NCBI RefSeq assembly: GCF_006385175.1
Contig: NZ_VFIY01000018.1
Location: 186,001-250,000, forward strand
Source of the DNA: Emcibacter nanhaiensis
Lineage (GTDB): Bacteria > Pseudomonadota > Alphaproteobacteria > Sphingomonadales > Emcibacteraceae
DNA length: 64,000 bases
Direction: 5' to 3'
Part shown: positions 15,159 through 21,587 of the stretch, piece by piece
How positions within the stretch are numbered: position 1 is the first letter of the stretch
Layout: each line of letters opens with the position of its first letter
Notes under the pieces: model-generated
Told to the model about the DNA's origin: nothing
What the model saw: the letters and a program-made list of their open reading frames with translations, nothing else
The model's database searches: none
Program-made: the position numbers and the translations under genes

Positions 15159-15686
15159 CTAAATCCCCATCTGCTTGCGGAATTTCTTCATCTTTTTCAG
15201 CAGTATGTTGCGTTTGACCGGCGACAGGTAATCGAGATAGATCACGCCGTCGAGGTAATCCACCTCATGCTGGATCACGGTGGCGAGCCAGCCTTCGGCG
15301 CGGAGGGTCTGTTCCGCCCCCTGCGCGTCAAGATAGGTGACGGTGATCTGTTTCGGCCGGGTGACCTCGGCGGAAATGCTGGGATAGCTGAGCGAGCCCT
15401 CTTCGAAGGTCTGGGTTTCTTCGGACTTGTCGACAATCTCCGGATTGACCATGGCGATAGGGCTTTCCGCCCCGCCCTCCTGCAGGTCGATCACCACCAG
15501 CCGCTTCAGCAATCCCACCATATTGGCGCCGAGGCCGACGCCGCGCTCCCGGTACAGCACCTCGAACATGCCGTCAAGCAGGGCGCGGATCTCGTCATCC
15601 ACCTGCCCGACCGGCTCCGCCGTCTGGCGAAACACCGGATCGGGGGCATAGACCAATTTCAGGTTTACCGATTTCAGCGGGGTCAT
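15159..15686 (-). CDS. Peptide deformylase homologue with degenerate active site
   Basis: 175 residues, the length and fold pattern of bacterial deformylase. All three family motifs are in place but altered. Motif 1, normally GxGLAAxQ, reads GVGLGANM (residues 49-56), so the catalytic glutamine is Met56. Motif 2, normally EGCLS, reads EGSLS, so the metal-ligand cysteine is Ser98. Motif 3, normally HExxH, reads HEVDY, so His140 and Glu141 remain but the second histidine is Tyr144. Loss of two of three metal ligands makes removal of N-formyl groups unlikely. The frame is intact from start to stop, and the surrounding residues stay conserved, so it looks selected rather than decaying. It may have a binding or regulatory role. 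It is convergent with the symporter, 2 bp apart. Confidence 0.85.
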   Translation of the reverse strand: MTPLKSVNLKLVYAPDPVFRQTAEPVGQVDDEIRALLDGMFEVLYRERGVGLGANMVGLLKRLVVIDLQEGGAESPIAMVNPEIVDKSEETQTFEEGSLSYPSISAEVTRPKQITVTYLDAQGAEQTLRAEGWLATVIQHEVDYLDGVIYLDYLSPVKRNILLKKMKKFRKQMGI

Positions 15687-15718: not shown

Positions 15719-15748
15719 TTGCCACTTATACTTTAAAGCCAGTATAAA
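15719..15748 (+). promoter_or_regulatory. Likely promoter of the RNase D gene
   Basis: TTGCCA (15719-15724) and TATAAA (15743-15748) are spaced 18 bp, 36 bp before the start at 15785, in the gap between the divergent deformylase-like gene and rnd. Confidence 0.4.
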
Positions 15749-15784
15749 GTTTAGTAGAAGTTTGGCAGACAAATTGGGAAATTC

Positions 15785-16399
15785 ATGACCATAAAATTAT
15801 TCCACGGGGACCTTCCCGACGATATCAAATTTTCCGGACCGGTAGCGGTCGATACCGAAACCCTGGGCCTGAAACCGCATCGCGACCGGTTGTGCCTGGT
15901 GCAGCTGTCCGGCGGCGACGGCAACGCCTATCTGGTGCAGATCGCCCAGGGCCAGACCAGCGCCCCGAACCTGAAAAAAGTTCTCGAGGATACCGGTTCC
16001 GTCAAGATTTTTCATTTTGCCCGCTTTGATGTGGCCGTGCTGAAACACTATCTGGAGATCAACGTCAAACCGATCTATTGCACCAAGATCGCCTCCCGGC
16101 TGGTGCGCACCTATACCGACAAGCACGGCCTCAAGGACCTGTGCCGCGAACTGCTGCAGGTGGAGATTTCCAAGCAGCAGCAGAGTTCCAACTGGGGCGC
16201 CGACGAACTGAGCCAGGCCCAGCAGGAATATGCCGCCTCGGACGTTTTGTACCTGCATCGCCTGATGAGCCGGCTGGACGTGATGCTGGAGCGGGCCGGC
16301 CGGCGGGAAATGGCCCGGAAATGCTTCGACTTCCTGCCAACCCGGGCCGAACTGGACCTGGCTGGCTGGGAAGAAGAGGATATTTTTGCCCACAGCTGA
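15785..16399 (+). CDS. rnd: Short ribonuclease D-type 3'-5' exonuclease
   Basis: 204 residues comprising the DEDDy exonuclease domain alone. Exo I is VAVDTETLG with Asp and Glu near residues 23-25, Exo II is FHFARFDVAVL with the aspartate near residue 82, and Exo III is YAASDVLYL with the tyrosine and aspartate near residue 150. The HRDC domain of full-length E. coli RNase D is absent, as in many alphaproteobacterial homologues. The enzyme should trim 3' ends of tRNA or other RNA. It lies upstream of the lptC cluster in the same direction, a common arrangement in alphaproteobacteria. Confidence 0.88.
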   Translation: MTIKLFHGDLPDDIKFSGPVAVDTETLGLKPHRDRLCLVQLSGGDGNAYLVQIAQGQTSAPNLKKVLEDTGSVKIFHFARFDVAVLKHYLEINVKPIYCTKIASRLVRTYTDKHGLKDLCRELLQVEISKQQQSSNWGADELSQAQQEYAASDVLYLHRLMSRLDVMLERAGRREMARKCFDFLPTRAELDLAGWEEEDIFAHS

Positions 16400-16541
16400 C
16401 GTTTTGCGGCTGATTCCGGTTAAAAATTCTTTTCCCGGAACCCTTTTTCTGCCATCTTCCTGACAGATAACATGTCAATCAGAGCAGAATGCCAAACAGG
16501 ACAAACACTCCGGCAGTCGTTGCCGGGGTTACGGGCGTAAT

Positions 16542-17270
16542 ATGAGTGAACATAAGGATATACACGGCAGCGTCGCAGGCGAAAGCCATGCCGACCACCT
16601 GGAAAGGCTGATTCCGAAAAGCAGCCAGAGCTTCGAGGAAAGCCAGAAGCAGGTGGAGCTGATTTCTGTCCTGAAAAAATCCCTGCCGGTCATTACCGTC
16701 TTTTTCCTGATCGCCCTGGTGCTGTGGCCGGTCTTCAGCACCAAGGAAGGCAGCTTTACCCTGGCCATCGACCGGCTGGAAAAGCGGGATGAAACCGCCA
16801 AGCTGATCAAGCCCCGCTATGAAGGCAAGGACCGCTACAACAATCCGGTGCGGATTTCCGCCGAAAGCGCCTATCGCGAAACCAACGAGGCCAAGGACTA
16901 TAAATTCCGCAACCTGCTGGCCGAAATGTATCTGAAATCAGGCGACCGCATGTTTGTGAAGGCCCGCTCCGGCCTGTTTGATGTTTCGGACCAGGTGATG
17001 CAGCTGGACGATGAAGTGCACATCCAGTCGGACACCGGTTTTAATTTCACCGCCCGCCAGGCCGAATTCCAGATCAATGACAAACTGGCCAGCGGCCATG
17101 ACGGCGTCAGCGGATCGGCGCCCTTTGGCGCCTTCAGCTCCCGCGCCTTCAAGGTCAATGTGGACGAGGAAACCGTCTTTCTGGAAGGCGACGTCAAGAT
17201 GCACATCGATCCGGAAAAACCCATTGAAACCCCCGAAATTTCCACACCGGGCAGCGATGACAACAATTAA
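16542..17270 (+). CDS. lptC: LPS export system protein LptC
   Basis: 242 residues. A cytoplasmic N-terminus of about 45 residues precedes one membrane anchor (SLPVITVFFLIALVLWPVF), followed by a periplasmic beta-jellyroll region with repeated strands such as DRYNNPVRISAESAYRE and FNFTARQAEFQIN. LptC belongs to the LptB2FGC transporter and passes LPS to LptA across the periplasm. The gene starts the lptC-lptA-lptB-rpoN-hpf-ptsN run. The sequence is weakly conserved, so the identification depends on both topology and synteny. Confidence 0.88.
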   Translation: MSEHKDIHGSVAGESHADHLERLIPKSSQSFEESQKQVELISVLKKSLPVITVFFLIALVLWPVFSTKEGSFTLAIDRLEKRDETAKLIKPRYEGKDRYNNPVRISAESAYRETNEAKDYKFRNLLAEMYLKSGDRMFVKARSGLFDVSDQVMQLDDEVHIQSDTGFNFTARQAEFQINDKLASGHDGVSGSAPFGAFSSRAFKVNVDEETVFLEGDVKMHIDPEKPIETPEISTPGSDDNN

Positions 17271-17288
17271 CCAGGCAACTCAGGTAAT

Positions 17289-17849
17289 ATGATGACTTAT
17301 TTTACCCCTAATTCCCGCAACGGCTTTTTACTGGTCAAAATCGTGGTGCCGGCCCTCCTCGCCCTGGCACTGATGTTGAGCGGCAGCCTGGCCCGGGCGC
17401 AGATTTCCGCCCTCAAGGACCATGACGTGAAAGAGCCGGTGGATATCAGCGCCGACAAGCTGGAAGTCCGCCAGAAGGAAAATATTGCGGTTTTTGTCGG
17501 CAATGTGAAGGTGGTCCAGGGCGACATGACCATGAACTCGGACCGCATCAACGTCTATTACGAGGCCGGGGAAGACAAGGAACTGTCCTCCTCCATCACC
17601 CGGCTCGACGCCTCCGGCAACGTCACCGTCAAATCCCCAACCGAGGAAATTTCCAGCAGCTGGGCGGTCTATGACCTGTCCGAAGGGATCATTACCCTGG
17701 GCGACCGGGTGGTGCTGAAAACCGAAGACGGGGAGCTGCATGGCAAAAAGCTGCGCCTCAACCTGGATACCGGCGTGATCAGCATTGAAGGCCAGGACGG
17801 AAAGGACCGGGTCAAGGGCCAGTTTACCGTCCCGGACAAACAAGACTAA
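17289..17849 (+). CDS. lptA: LPS transport periplasmic protein LptA
   Basis: 186 residues with a signal peptide (ALLALALMLSGSLARA, cleavage near residue 37) and an OstA-type domain: PVDISADKLEVRQKENIAVF, GNVKVVQGDMTMNSDRINVYY, and the later TLGDRVVLKTEDGELHGKKL. LptA forms the periplasmic bridge that carries LPS from LptC to LptD. It follows lptC by 18 bp and precedes lptB, as expected. No anomalies. Confidence 0.92.
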   Translation: MMTYFTPNSRNGFLLVKIVVPALLALALMLSGSLARAQISALKDHDVKEPVDISADKLEVRQKENIAVFVGNVKVVQGDMTMNSDRINVYYEAGEDKELSSSITRLDASGNVTVKSPTEEISSSWAVYDLSEGIITLGDRVVLKTEDGELHGKKLRLNLDTGVISIEGQDGKDRVKGQFTVPDKQD

Positions 17850-17963
17850 CCTGCCGGAAAAGCGCTGGTCGACAAAATTGCCTGCCTGTATTTAAAATTT
17901 ATGGTAAATTTCCTATATCTGAAGGGTAAGGTCAGGTCAGGAAAAACCCTTTGTTAATCCCTT

Positions 17964-18764
17964 ATGGGGTACATAATGAGTATGGATCAGAATATTACAC
18001 CGATATCCGAGCACGCCACGGTGGCGCCGGCCACCCTGTTGGAAGAGGGGCTGGTCGTTGACTGCATCGAAAAAAAATACCGCAAGAAAACGGTGTTGCG
18101 CAGCATCAGCCTGGAGGTACACAAGGGAGAAGTCGTAGGTCTTCTCGGCCCCAATGGCGCCGGCAAGACCACCTGCTTCTATACCATCACCGGCCTGATC
18201 GAGCCGGATGCGGGCCGGATCGTCCTCGACGGGCACGATATCACCCGCATGCCCATGTATCGCCGGGCCCGGCTTGGCATCGGCTATCTGCCGCAGGAGG
18301 CCTCCATCTTCCGCGGCATGACGGTGGAAGAAAATATCTGGTCGGTTCTGGAAATTTCCGAACCCAATGAAGGCAGACGGCTTGAAATGCTGGAGGAACT
18401 GCTGAGCGAGTTTTCCATCCAGCATATCCGCCAGTCTCCCGCCCTGGCCCTGTCCGGCGGGGAACGGCGGCGGGCGGAGATCGCCCGGGCCCTGGCCACC
18501 CGTCCCAGCTTCATGCTGCTGGATGAACCCTTTGCCGGCATTGATCCCATCGCCATCGCCGACATTCGTGACCTGGTGTCACATCTGAAAGACCGGGGCA
18601 TCGGTGTGCTGATCACGGATCACAACGTCAGGGAGACACTTGATATCATTGACCGGGCCTACATTATCCATGACGGCACCGTGCTGATGACCGGGACGCC
18701 GCAGGAAATTGTCGCCAATGAAGACGTCCGTCGTGTATATTTGGGTGACAGGTTCAGTCTGTAA
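17964..18764 (+). CDS. lptB: LPS export ABC transporter ATPase LptB
   Basis: 266 residues. Walker A is GPNGAGKTT, the Q-loop region is [15 protein letters not shown], the signature is [15 protein letters not shown], Walker B is [13 protein letters not shown], and the H-loop histidine is in [11 protein letters not shown]. The FRGMTVEEN wording is diagnostic of LptB. It powers LPS extraction from the inner membrane with LptF, LptG and LptC. The N-terminus carries about 25 residues beyond the usual start, rich in Ala, Thr and Glu; an internal start cannot be excluded. rpoN starts 17 bp after its stop. Confidence 0.95.
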
Positions 18765-18781
18765 GGTGGGATAGAGAGAAT

Positions 18782-20320
18782 ATGGCTTTAACGCCACGCT
18801 TGGAACTAAAACAATCGCAGTCGCTGGTCATGACCCCCCAGCTGCAGCAGGCTATTCGCCTTCTGCAATATTCCAATATGGAACTTGTCGACTTCGTGAT
18901 TGATGAAGTGGAAAAGAATCCGCTTCTGGAAATGGGGGAAGCCAACGATCAATCCCAGACCCCGGGCGAAAGCGAACGCGACGAGAGTGAGAAAAACGGC
19001 AAGGAGAGCGAAGCCGTTACCAGTTCCGATGAATATCTCAGCGCCGATACCATGCAGGGCAGTGAGTCCGATACGCCGCTGGATACGGATTATGAAAATG
19101 TTTTCAATAACGACACGGCCAGCGACGAACCGCTGAGCAATTACAGCGACAGCCTGAGCGTCAGCGGCAGCGGCATGTCCTCCGGCGGCAGCTTTGAAGA
19201 CATGGATTTCTCTCTCGAGCAACGGGTCGGAGAAAGCACCACGCTGCGCGATCATCTCGAAGACCAGCTCAATATGATCGTGCTGCCGACCAACGACAAA
19301 CTGATCCTGCAATATCTGATCGGCTCGCTGGATGAATCCGGCTACCTCACCGAAGACATTGACCTGATCGCCGAACGGTTCGGCTGCAGCACAGATGAAA
19401 TCGAACGGGTCCTGGCCATTGCCCAGACTTTTGATCCGATTGGCGTCTTCGCGCGCAACCTGTCCGAATGCCTCAAAATTCAGCAGCGCGAACTGGACCG
19501 GCTTGACCCGGCCATGGAAGCCCTGCTCGATAACCTCGAGCTTCTGGCCAAACGGGATTTCAATGCCCTGAAACGGCTGTGCCGGGTGGATACCGAAGAC
19601 CTCAGGGACATGATCGGGGAGATCCAGTCGCTGAACCCACGGCCCGGCTCCCTGTTCGGCGGCGAAGTGGTCCAGACTGTGGTCCCCGACGTGTTTATCC
19701 GCAAATCCCCCAAGGGGGAATGGTTTGTCGAGCTGAACAGCGAAACCCTGCCCCGCGTCCTGCTCAACAACCGGTACCATACCGTGGTCAAGGAACAGGC
19801 CCGCAACAAGGAAGAAAAGGAATATCTGGCCGAATGCATGGCATCAGCCAATTGGCTGGTCAAGGCACTGGACCAGCGTGCCCGCACCATCCTCAAGGTC
19901 TCCAGTGAACTGGTTCGCCAGCAGAGTGAATTCTTTGAAAAGGGCATTAAATTCCTGCGTCCGCTGAACCTGAAGACCATTGCCGAAGCCATCGACATGC
20001 ATGAAAGCACCGTGAGTCGTGTAACCGCCAATAAATATATCGCCACGAACCGTGGCATCTTTGAAATGAAGTATTTCTTCACCACCGCCATCTCGTCCAT
20101 GGCCGAAGGTGATGTCCATTCCGCAGAAGCGGTGAAACACTCCATCAAGTCCCTGATCGATGAGGAAAACCCGAAAAAAATCCTTTCAGATGATAAACTT
20201 GTGGAGTTGCTGAAAGCGGAAGGTATTGATATTGCAAGAAGAACAGTAGCAAAATATCGCGAGGCCCTGAATATTCCATCGTCTATTCAGCGCCGCCGGA
20301 TAAAGAATTCCGCCCTGTGA
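18782..20320 (+). CDS. rpoN: RNA polymerase sigma-54 factor
   Basis: 512 residues. Region I begins LELKQSQSLVMTPQLQQAI with the glutamine-rich activator-contact segment, then an acidic Ser/Asp/Glu-rich region II (residues 45-140), the core-binding region, a helix-turn-helix (STVSRVTANKYI) and the RpoN box ARRTVAKYRE near residue 490 that reads the -24 promoter element. It directs transcription of genes needing enhancer-binding activators, often for nitrogen, motility or surface polymers. It sits in the conserved place between lptB and hpf. The acidic region II is long. Confidence 0.97.
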   Translation: MALTPRLELKQSQSLVMTPQLQQAIRLLQYSNMELVDFVIDEVEKNPLLEMGEANDQSQTPGESERDESEKNGKESEAVTSSDEYLSADTMQGSESDTPLDTDYENVFNNDTASDEPLSNYSDSLSVSGSGMSSGGSFEDMDFSLEQRVGESTTLRDHLEDQLNMIVLPTNDKLILQYLIGSLDESGYLTEDIDLIAERFGCSTDEIERVLAIAQTFDPIGVFARNLSECLKIQQRELDRLDPAMEALLDNLELLAKRDFNALKRLCRVDTEDLRDMIGEIQSLNPRPGSLFGGEVVQTVVPDVFIRKSPKGEWFVELNSETLPRVLLNNRYHTVVKEQARNKEEKEYLAECMASANWLVKALDQRARTILKVSSELVRQQSEFFEKGIKFLRPLNLKTIAEAIDMHESTVSRVTANKYIATNRGIFEMKYFFTTAISSMAEGDVHSAEAVKHSIKSLIDEENPKKILSDDKLVELLKAEGIDIARRTVAKYREALNIPSSIQRRRIKNSAL

Positions 20321-20433
20321 GCTCACCGAAACAGAAAATTAGACAGATAGCGTTTTTTGTTTCCACGGGGAGGTATCCAGCAGGACAGACGGATCCCTTT
20401 CCCCTGTCCAGCCAGAGGAACTTGGGTCAAAAC

Positions 20434-20462
20434 TTGACAAAGTGGTAAGTTAACTCTAAGTT
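20434..20462 (+). promoter_or_regulatory. Possible promoter upstream of hpf
   Basis: In the 211 bp gap between rpoN and hpf, TTGACA (20434-20439) is followed 17 bp later by TAAGTT (20457-20462). The -35 is consensus and the -10 matches poorly. A second TTGACT lies near 20472. It would give hpf and ptsN a promoter separate from rpoN. Confidence 0.3.
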
Positions 20463-20531
20463 CCGCGGCCTTGACTGGTAAAATCAAAAGTCTGCGTTGA
20501 TTTAGCTGTCTGAGAAGGATCTGAGAAAAGC

Positions 20532-21101
20532 ATGAGAATCGTTGTTACCGGCAAACAGATTGATATTGGTGACTCACTTCGCAGTCATGTGGAAAACAGC
20601 CTCGACGGCAGTGTGAACAAATATTTCGATCACCCCATAGAGGGATCTGTAACCTTTTCCAAGGATGCACATTTGTTCCGGGCAGATTGCCAGGTACATC
20701 TGGGTCACGGGGTAGACCTGCAGACCCATGGCGAAGAAACAGATATTTATGCGGCTTTTGATTCAGCAGCAGACCGGATGGAAAAAAGATTGCGCAGATA
20801 CAAAAGACGTCTGAGCAATCACCATAACCAGCGAGTCAACGGCCAGTCAGTGATCCCTGCCCAATATAATGTATTGGCGGCAGAGGAAGAAGGTGAAGAG
20901 GAGCTGGAGGATGCCCAGCCCGCCATCGTCGCAGAAACGGAAACCTATATTCCGGAAGTCTCTGTCAGCGAAGCGGTCATGCGGCTCGACCTCGGCAATC
21001 TTCAAACGCTTATGTTCCGCAATTCCGGGCATGGGCGCATGAATGTGGTTTATCGCCGGGCCGATGGAAACATCGGCTGGATTGACCCGAAAGAAGATTA
21101 A
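20532..21101 (+). CDS. hpf: Ribosome hibernation promoting factor, long form
   Basis: 189 residues with two parts. Residues 1-100 are the S30AE domain (MRIVVTGKQIDIGDSLRSHV, and a basic helix ADRMEKRLRRYKRRLSNHHN). Residues 125-185 are the C-terminal dimerisation domain (VSVSEAVMRLDLGNLQTLMF, HGRMNVVYRRADGNIGWI). The long form binds the 30S decoding region and pairs ribosomes into 100S dimers when growth stops. The linker is rich in Glu. Its place between rpoN and ptsN is the usual one in proteobacteria and fits control by nutrient status. Confidence 0.95.
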   Translation: MRIVVTGKQIDIGDSLRSHVENSLDGSVNKYFDHPIEGSVTFSKDAHLFRADCQVHLGHGVDLQTHGEETDIYAAFDSAADRMEKRLRRYKRRLSNHHNQRVNGQSVIPAQYNVLAAEEEGEEELEDAQPAIVAETETYIPEVSVSEAVMRLDLGNLQTLMFRNSGHGRMNVVYRRADGNIGWIDPKED

Positions 21102-21119
21102 CAACAAGAAGTGATCCGT

Positions 21120-21587
21120 ATGGATATTGCTGATTTGATAAATCTGGACACCATCATTCCGGATATGAAAGCGACAAGCAAAAAGCAGATTTTGCAGGAA
21201 CTCGCGAACAAGGCAGAAAAGGTACTCGACAGGCCCAGCCACGAAATCGTTGACGTTCTGGTGGAACGTGAACGGCTTGGTACCACAGGGGTGGGACATG
21301 GCGTTGCCATCCCGCACGGGAAAATTCCCGGACTGGACCGGCTGTATGGCATTTTTGCCCGCCTGAACCAGCCGGTGGACTATGATTCCCTGGATGGTGA
21401 GCCGGTTGACCTGATCTTCATGCTTCTGGCGCCGGAAGCCGCCGGTGCAGACCATCTGAAGGCCCTGGCCAAGGTGTCCCGCCTGCTGCGTGACAAATCA
21501 ACCTGTGAGAAGCTGCGGGGCTCCGAGGGCGGCGATGCCATTCACGCGATCCTGACCTCGACCAGCAAGAATTCCAACGCCGCCTGA
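21120..21587 (+). CDS. ptsN: PTS IIA-like nitrogen-regulatory protein PtsN
   Basis: 155 residues from the ATG at 21120; a GTG three codons earlier is possible. The EIIA domain has the phosphorylated histidine in GVGHGVAIPHGKI near residue 65, then DGEPVDLIFMLLAPE and LAKVSRLLRD. PtsN accepts phosphate from the PTS-Ntr chain (PtsP, NPr) and regulates potassium transport and nitrogen or carbon responses. It is the last gene of the lpt-rpoN run, closed by a strong terminator. Confidence 0.95.
   Translation: MDIADLINLDTIIPDMKATSKKQILQELANKAEKVLDRPSHEIVDVLVERERLGTTGVGHGVAIPHGKIPGLDRLYGIFARLNQPVDYDSLDGEPVDLIFMLLAPEAAGADHLKALAKVSRLLRDKSTCEKLRGSEGGDAIHAILTSTSKNSNAA

Follow-up and report, generated by a model that had tools for sequence, protein, structure and literature searches.

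Peptide deformylase (PDF, Def) is an essential enzyme and a drug target. Weak or inactive members of the family are already known: the type 3 PDFs of S. aureus, S. pneumoniae, and T. brucei carry substitutions at crucial motif residues and are described as having weak activity or none (PMC12690207, PMC5591237). These substitutions are placed in motifs I and II in one description (PMC12690207) and at one or several motif residues in the other (PMC5591237). A small metal-binding tail that ends a ribosome-binding protein is, in turn, described for the C-terminal domain of SecA (PMC6620043).

The window analyzed here, a 64,000-nucleotide stretch of the Emcibacter nanhaiensis genome, encodes a deformylase paralog that belongs to a distinct clade, termed MSY for its Met-Ser-Tyr replacements. 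MSY proteins resemble the canonical type 1B Def (E. coli, 1xen) in fold, in length, in the C-terminal alpha helix, in the HE of motif III, and in Gly45, Glu88, and Arg102. Unlike the canonical enzyme, they carry Met, Ser, and Tyr in place of Gln50, Cys90, and His136 in every MSY row compared. The type 3 PDFs, as characterized in the two sources above, likewise have substitutions at crucial motif residues; in MSY proteins all three motifs are altered, and in the same way throughout the clade, a contrast drawn from published descriptions. No paper on the MSY clade or on the tail motif found in many of its members was found among the matches listed from the open-licence PMC literature, which suggests that the fixed Met-Ser-Tyr clade and its tail are new.

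Sequence and predicted structure of the window paralog

The gene and its features are listed in Table 1. The encoded protein matches the Pfam family Pep_deformylase (PF01327) at 165.7 bits, against a cut-off of 22.8 (E 7.5e-49), and the NCBIfam equivalog TIGR00079 at 160 bits, against a cut-off of 103.95 (E 3.4e-47); PDB sequences are also matched in a sequence search. Structural modeling with AF2, using 69 aligned sequences, yields a plain PDF fold with a mean pLDDT of 94.6, including the C-terminal alpha helix that a type 1B PDF requires. Foldseek retrieves 1icj with this model (E 5.1e-20), and the E. coli Fe-PDF 1xen superposes on it with a TM score of 0.91 and an rmsd of 1.1. The open reading frame and its homology to deformylase, as proposed in the sequence-only reading, are thus supported by profile, PDB, and model evidence alike. 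The same reading had placed Met56, Ser98, and Tyr144 at the positions that the Gln, the Cys, and the second His occupy in an active enzyme, with His140 and Glu141 retained, and all five residues are found at these positions. The window protein accordingly lacks the motif I Gln, the motif II Cys ligand, and the motif III HExxH of an active PDF, the last reading HExxY.

Table 1. Features of the paralog gene and its upstream region in the window
Feature	Position	Strand	Basis
MSY-clade deformylase paralog, 175 aa, ATG start, stop included	15159..15686	-	ORF, profile matches, AF2
Motif I GVGLGANM; Met56 (codon 15519-15521) in place of Gln (E. coli Gln50)	15519..15542	-	
Motif II EGSLS; Ser98 codon (15393-15395) replaces metal ligand Cys (E. 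coli Cys90)	15387..15401	-	
Motif III QHEVDYLDG with His140 and Glu141 retained; Tyr144 (codon 15255-15257) in place of the second His (E. coli His136)	15246..15272	-	
C-terminal helix, residues 156-173, counterpart of the ribosome-contacting helix of E. coli Def	15168..15221	-	AF2, column table
Basic residues of this helix: Lys158, Lys165, Lys168, Lys171 (E. coli positions 150, 157, 160, 163)			
Candidate promoter of the paralog, between it and the divergently oriented 3'-5' exonuclease (RNase D-like) gene	15741..15768	-	One 9/12 consensus match; shuffles mean 0.4; weak

The replacements are fixed and define one clade

For the census, each PDF row was reduced to a key of five residues, those at positions 56, 98, 140, 141, and 144 of the window protein. 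The PDF rows of loci L001-L173 fall into MSHEY (106), MSHDY (1, L080), QCHEH (67), and QSHQH (1, L109), counts in which some genes were fetched repeatedly and which correspond to 78, 1, 67, and 1 distinct sequences, respectively. No row in this set mixes the Met/Gln, Ser/Cys, and Tyr/His states. A Rickettsia locus fetched later (L192) holds an intact MSY copy with Lys instead of Glu. Given the lack of mixed keys, Met, Ser, His, and Tyr occur together, while Glu can vary, being Asp in L080 and Lys in L192.

The three replacements are invariant in 15/15 and in 69/69 aligned sequences, the window protein included, an agreement beyond chance; the other members of the 69-sequence alignment share 46-66% identity with it. 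M56, S98, and Y144 belong to the 12 invariant columns among 176 in this alignment, in which His140 is likewise invariant. The new residues are as invariant as the structural core; drift would be expected of a pocket merely in decay. The window gene is a member of a clade with fixed replacements and not a one-off case of decay.

Phylogenetic analysis recovers the same division. In a tree of 141 rows, the 73 MSY sequences are split from the 67 QCHEH sequences with an SH-aLRT of 99. When the three motif blocks were removed, a seeded subset of 86 rows (44 MSY and 42 canonical; L109, L141, L165, and L166 excluded) gave the split with a support of 100/98, and it was present in 100% of 200 bootstrap trees, with E. 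coli Def on the canonical side. MSY is thus one clade, independent of the motif columns.

The comparison of individual sites covers 73 MSY and 63 canonical rows, 4 of the 67 QCHEH rows and the QSHQH row being excluded. In E. coli numbering, Q50M, C90S, and H136Y separate 100% of the MSY rows from 100% of the canonical rows. Further changes in MSY are Leu13 to Phe (95%) and Phe or Tyr at position 93 (100%). Common to both groups are Gly45, Glu88, Arg102, Gln131, His132, Gly139, Asp144, and Lys at 150 and 160, and the HisGlu of motif III is retained in nearly all compared rows. Position 125, described as belonging to the P1' pocket (PMC12690207), is aromatic in ~95%, with Trp in 11% of canonical rows.

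A canonical def in the carrier genomes checked

In E. nanhaiensis itself, a canonical def (L001) is followed by fmt (TIGR00460), and the MSY gene lies outside this def-fmt operon. The 16 relatives that carry an MSY gene have exactly two matches each, the second copy being canonical in 16/16. Sixteen named carrier genomes were selected from the 68 MSY loci, and in 16/16 of them a further PDF copy has the QCHEH key. The sequence-only reading had proposed a search for homologs that share Met, Ser, and Tyr and a test of whether they form a clade beside def, and had named a genome devoid of any other def as evidence against its view. The key census, the tree, and the second copies give this check a positive outcome, and a def was found in the own genome, in the 16/16 relatives, and in the 16/16 named genomes.

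Two further observations concern additional PDF copies. In Rickettsia tamurae and R. australis, a stop breaks the frame of a third PDF (G431:C14:12858-13328 and G433:C43:25412-25789), while the MSY copy there is an open frame. A Marivivens MAG carries three PDF frames in tandem (L109:6010-7483), the third of which, with the key QSHQH, represents another degenerate type. Like MSY, it has lost the metal Cys beside canonical copies; unlike MSY, it keeps the Gln and the second His, has lost the Glu, and is located in tandem.

The C-terminal helix and the His/Cys-rich tail

The ribosome contacts of E. coli Def are given as L149, K150, R153, K157, K160, and R163 (PMC12690207). In MSY rows, position 150 is Lys in 96%, 157 is Lys in 89% and Arg in 11%, 160 is Lys in 99%, and 163 is Lys in 72% and Arg in 19%. 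The contact charge is hence retained at 150, 157, 160, and 163 but not at 149 and 153, which are Val and Ile in the window protein. Canonical rows have Leu149 in 95% of cases, compared with 29% for MSY, and Arg153 occurs in 12% of MSY and 5% of canonical rows. Judged from these residues, the ribosome contacts appear no better kept in MSY than in ordinary Def. The sequence-only reading had proposed that the protein may bind formyl-Met N-termini or ribosomes without cleavage; the one observation in favor is the retention of most basic residues in this helix, for which descent from Def is an explanation as well.

In many MSY proteins, the helix whose E. coli counterpart contacts the ribosome is directly followed by a His/Cys-rich tail. 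Such C-termini occur in 45 of the 84 distinct MSY sequences and in none of the 70 distinct canonical ones; 32 of the 84 contain an HxH..C.H element, 13 are otherwise rich in His/Cys, and 39 are neither. The counts include several close Rickettsia copies; a thinned tree has tails on 33 of its 72 MSY rows, with at least six changes of tail state. Across many records from Rickettsiales and some from elsewhere, the tail mostly takes the form PPH(V/I)HGxxCxH at the last residue; measured against the first row of the respective alignment, these proteins are 45-57% identical. Some Kordiimonas copies have extra runs of His in the tail. Individual tailed examples, with PPHVHGxxCxH or longer His runs, are L040, L043, L054, L063, L068, L108, and L119. 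The 14 intact copies from the genus Rickettsia all have a tail. When the codon pattern for HxHGxxxCxxH was searched in 17 genomes, 10 of its 12 matches lay at the end of an MSY gene, one of the remaining two having an in-frame stop and the other lying in a different open frame; the reversed control gave 0. These residue patterns suggest that the tail of many homologs may bind metal.

The AF2 model of the tailed L119 protein contains no structure beyond residue 164, the block means of pLDDT being 72 for residues 161-170 and 48 for residues 171-176, with values <50 at 173-176. A tail that folds back to refill the metal site was rejected on this model, and it could not be general in any case, since 39/84 MSY C-termini have no tail. 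The window protein is itself tailless. The picture given by the sequence-only reading therefore held for the replacements and was incomplete at the C-terminus, the His/Cys tail of many homologs being invisible from the window copy.

Taxonomic distribution

In a search of 40 related genomes (own included), matches were found in 39/40, and the same three replacements in 16 of the 39 other genomes (11/23 in the family and 5/16 in the rest of the order). In a wider scan of species genomes, the best 80 of 332 relatives were kept as loci, and 68 of these best 80 have the MSY form; two peptide patterns served to pick the 80, and since the Met is part of one of them, a selection bias is possible. The titles of the MSY records among these 80 all point to Alphaproteobacteria or to unplaced proteobacteria, namely Kordiimonas, Sneathiella, Emcibacter, Rhodobiaceae, Parvibaculaceae, Hwanghaeella, Rickettsia, Megaira, Midichloriaceae, and unnamed MAGs.

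The class search involved no choice by pattern and is hence free of the Met bias. Both the class and the phylum samples are even draws of genomes that are ≥90% complete, with membership below the fetched loci assigned by a gap in score. In the class sample, 9/387 genomes (own included) score ≥223.6 bits, the next score after the gap being 192.8; among the 30 fetched loci, the top 9 are MSHEY and the following 21 QCHEH. In the phylum sample, 3/299 genomes (own included, all from one order) score ≥254.9, and the next score, 192.7, belongs to a canonical copy. The MSY paralog is thus lineage-restricted and patchy within both samples.

A mobile or viral origin of the gene was rejected: 19 stretches of viral contigs matched the peptide patterns with 0 relatives among them, and the 1021 matching plasmid records (12 listed) were all <60% identical, as judged by identity level. 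Four MAGs titled Rickettsia typhi (L049, L062, L071, and L089) carry clearly dissimilar MSY genes, with identities to the window protein of 52-58% for three and 49% for L089, so these titles look doubtful.

Selection and loss in Rickettsia

Among 23 genomes of the genus Rickettsia, the frame is intact in 14 and visibly broken in 3, and weak fragments or nothing are found in the other 6. Among 13 intact copies, the median dN/dS is 0.094 (77/78 pairs usable), compared with 0.133 for 13 Def sequences (73/78 pairs usable); the two sets come from different genomes, L192 and the broken copies were dropped, and the MSY pairs are non-independent and have a high median dS (0.86). The intact Rickettsia copies are under purifying selection. 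Being broken or lost in 9/23 genomes, the gene is nevertheless dispensable in the genus. A Rickettsia 'peptide deformylase', described as absent from R. canadensis and the typhus group (PMC2635572), is given there without specifying the copy.

Genomic neighborhood and regulation

Upstream of the MSY gene, positions 15785-21587 encode an RNase D-like exonuclease followed by lptC- and lptA-like genes (just under the cut-off), lptB, rpoN, an hpf-family gene, and ptsN. When 15 neighbors from the window were searched in the 68 MSY loci, 6 gave matches, in 1 to 5 loci each, and the five lptB matches may be other ABC ATPases. Directly downstream, an SDF-family gene is convergent with the MSY gene; a Rickettsiales MAG (L052:6621-7442) has an SDF transporter gene in the same convergent arrangement, the only such case in the 68 loci. 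Clustering of neighbors recovers mainly within-genus synteny in its top clusters. An operon logic for the MSY gene was consequently rejected, the shared convergent SDF gene being the one neighborhood link beyond genera. No metal genes were seen among the annotated recurring neighbors.

In Rickettsia loci, the MSY gene is preceded by a Cu-oxidase_4 (YfiH-like) gene on its upstream side, which tblastn finds in Rickettsia loci only, among those collected. In L190:739-2025, Cu-oxidase_4 and the MSY gene share one stop-free frame.

Between the divergent paralog and exonuclease genes of the window, an inverted repeat (TTATACT/AGTATAA, 15726-15747) overlaps the promoter-like site of Table 1. It has no other match with ≤2 mismatches in the genome, while the reversed control gave 2 and 3 matches. 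Since the repeat is unique and the reversed control exceeds the pattern, no regulon can be assigned to the window gene.

Discussion

The best overall explanation, which we hold with slightly better than even confidence, is that the MSY protein is a dead deformylase-fold paralog that remains under constraint and probably acts at the ribosome exit. The sequence-only reading had called the protein probably not a deformylase, a view strengthened by the clade-wide replacement of two of the three metal ligands and of the motif I Gln, alongside a canonical def. On these residues, MSY proteins are very probably not deformylases under normal conditions; motif departures are no proof of inactivity, however, as the type 3 PDFs of T. 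brucei are reported to be active despite altered motifs (PMC12690207). That the MSY protein has a selected function is likewise highly likely.

Under this explanation, a deformylase-fold protein would have ceased deformylation and been retained for another role. With the Cys and one His gone, a catalytic metal could not be held in the usual way; the pocket would be metal-free, with Met, Ser, His, and Tyr forming a new fixed network. Less certainly, the basic C-terminal helix would dock where Def docks on the ribosome (uL22 and 23S rRNA), and the docked protein might then compete with Def or hold the nascent N-terminus uncleaved. In tailed relatives, a group that excludes the window copy, the flexible His/Cys tail could add a metal-dependent contact comparable to the end domain of SecA, an analogy that implies no homology. 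Whether MSY proteins work on the ribosome at all we regard as evenly balanced.

It is unlikely that MSY proteins serve instead as metallochaperones or metal stores, which, their own site lost, would use the His/Cys tail to carry or buffer metal destined for Def or for further enzymes of N-terminal processing. The tails would fit such a role, being found in 45/84 MSY and 0/70 canonical proteins and accounting for 10/12 codon-pattern matches in 17 genomes against 0 in the reversed control, and His stretches have been taken as a possible metallochaperone mark (PMC2770081). However, 39/84 MSY C-termini, the window's included, are tailless, tail state changed at least six times, and the annotated recurring neighbors include no metal genes.

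A stand-in deformylase is quite unlikely, too; it would rely on a different metal, or act during metal or oxidative stress, with ligands provided by His140, Tyr144, and Ser98. Replacement of the motif I Gln throughout the clade argues against it, as do the Asp and Lys that take the place of Glu in L080 and the intact L192 and the lack of a regulon signal, the upstream inverted repeat, the one element searched, being unique in the genome. Its merits are the near-universal retention of HisGlu and two published precedents, a discussion of metal-independent paralogs of Zn enzymes (PMC2770081) and the suggestion that type 3 PDFs may use other cofactors (PMC12690207).

Highly improbable is a hydrolase that would work without metal, Ser98 and His140 having become a nucleophile pair at the former metal site. 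The two residues are invariant in 69 sequences and should be close to each other, since the fold is superposable and they occupy the places of two residues that bound the same metal, yet no oxyanion donor was identified and the Glu is variable (L080, L192). A functionless, decaying relic is barely credible, for the residues re-fixed at 46-66% identity, the low dN/dS, and the tails kept at 45-57% identity outweigh the breakage or loss in 9/23 Rickettsia genomes and the patchy presence in 9/387 genomes of the class sample (own included).

A bolder version of the preferred ribosome-exit explanation, which we consider very unlikely, makes MSY a class of ribosome-exit factors in which metal binding moved from the pocket to the His/Cys tail, such that the metal supply would select either the dead copy or Def at the exit. 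If true, both free-living and intracellular alphaproteobacteria would have their deformylation tied to metal status, and tailless members such as the window's would retain the docking part only.

Current annotation takes MSY copies for deformylase, as 69/69 clade members match TIGR00079 at E ≤0.001, and counts of accessory PDFs may therefore include them. A copy that is conserved although dead, its pocket re-fixed and its C-terminus extended in many species by a tail resembling a metal-binding element, would be a case of an enzyme turned ribosome or metal partner.
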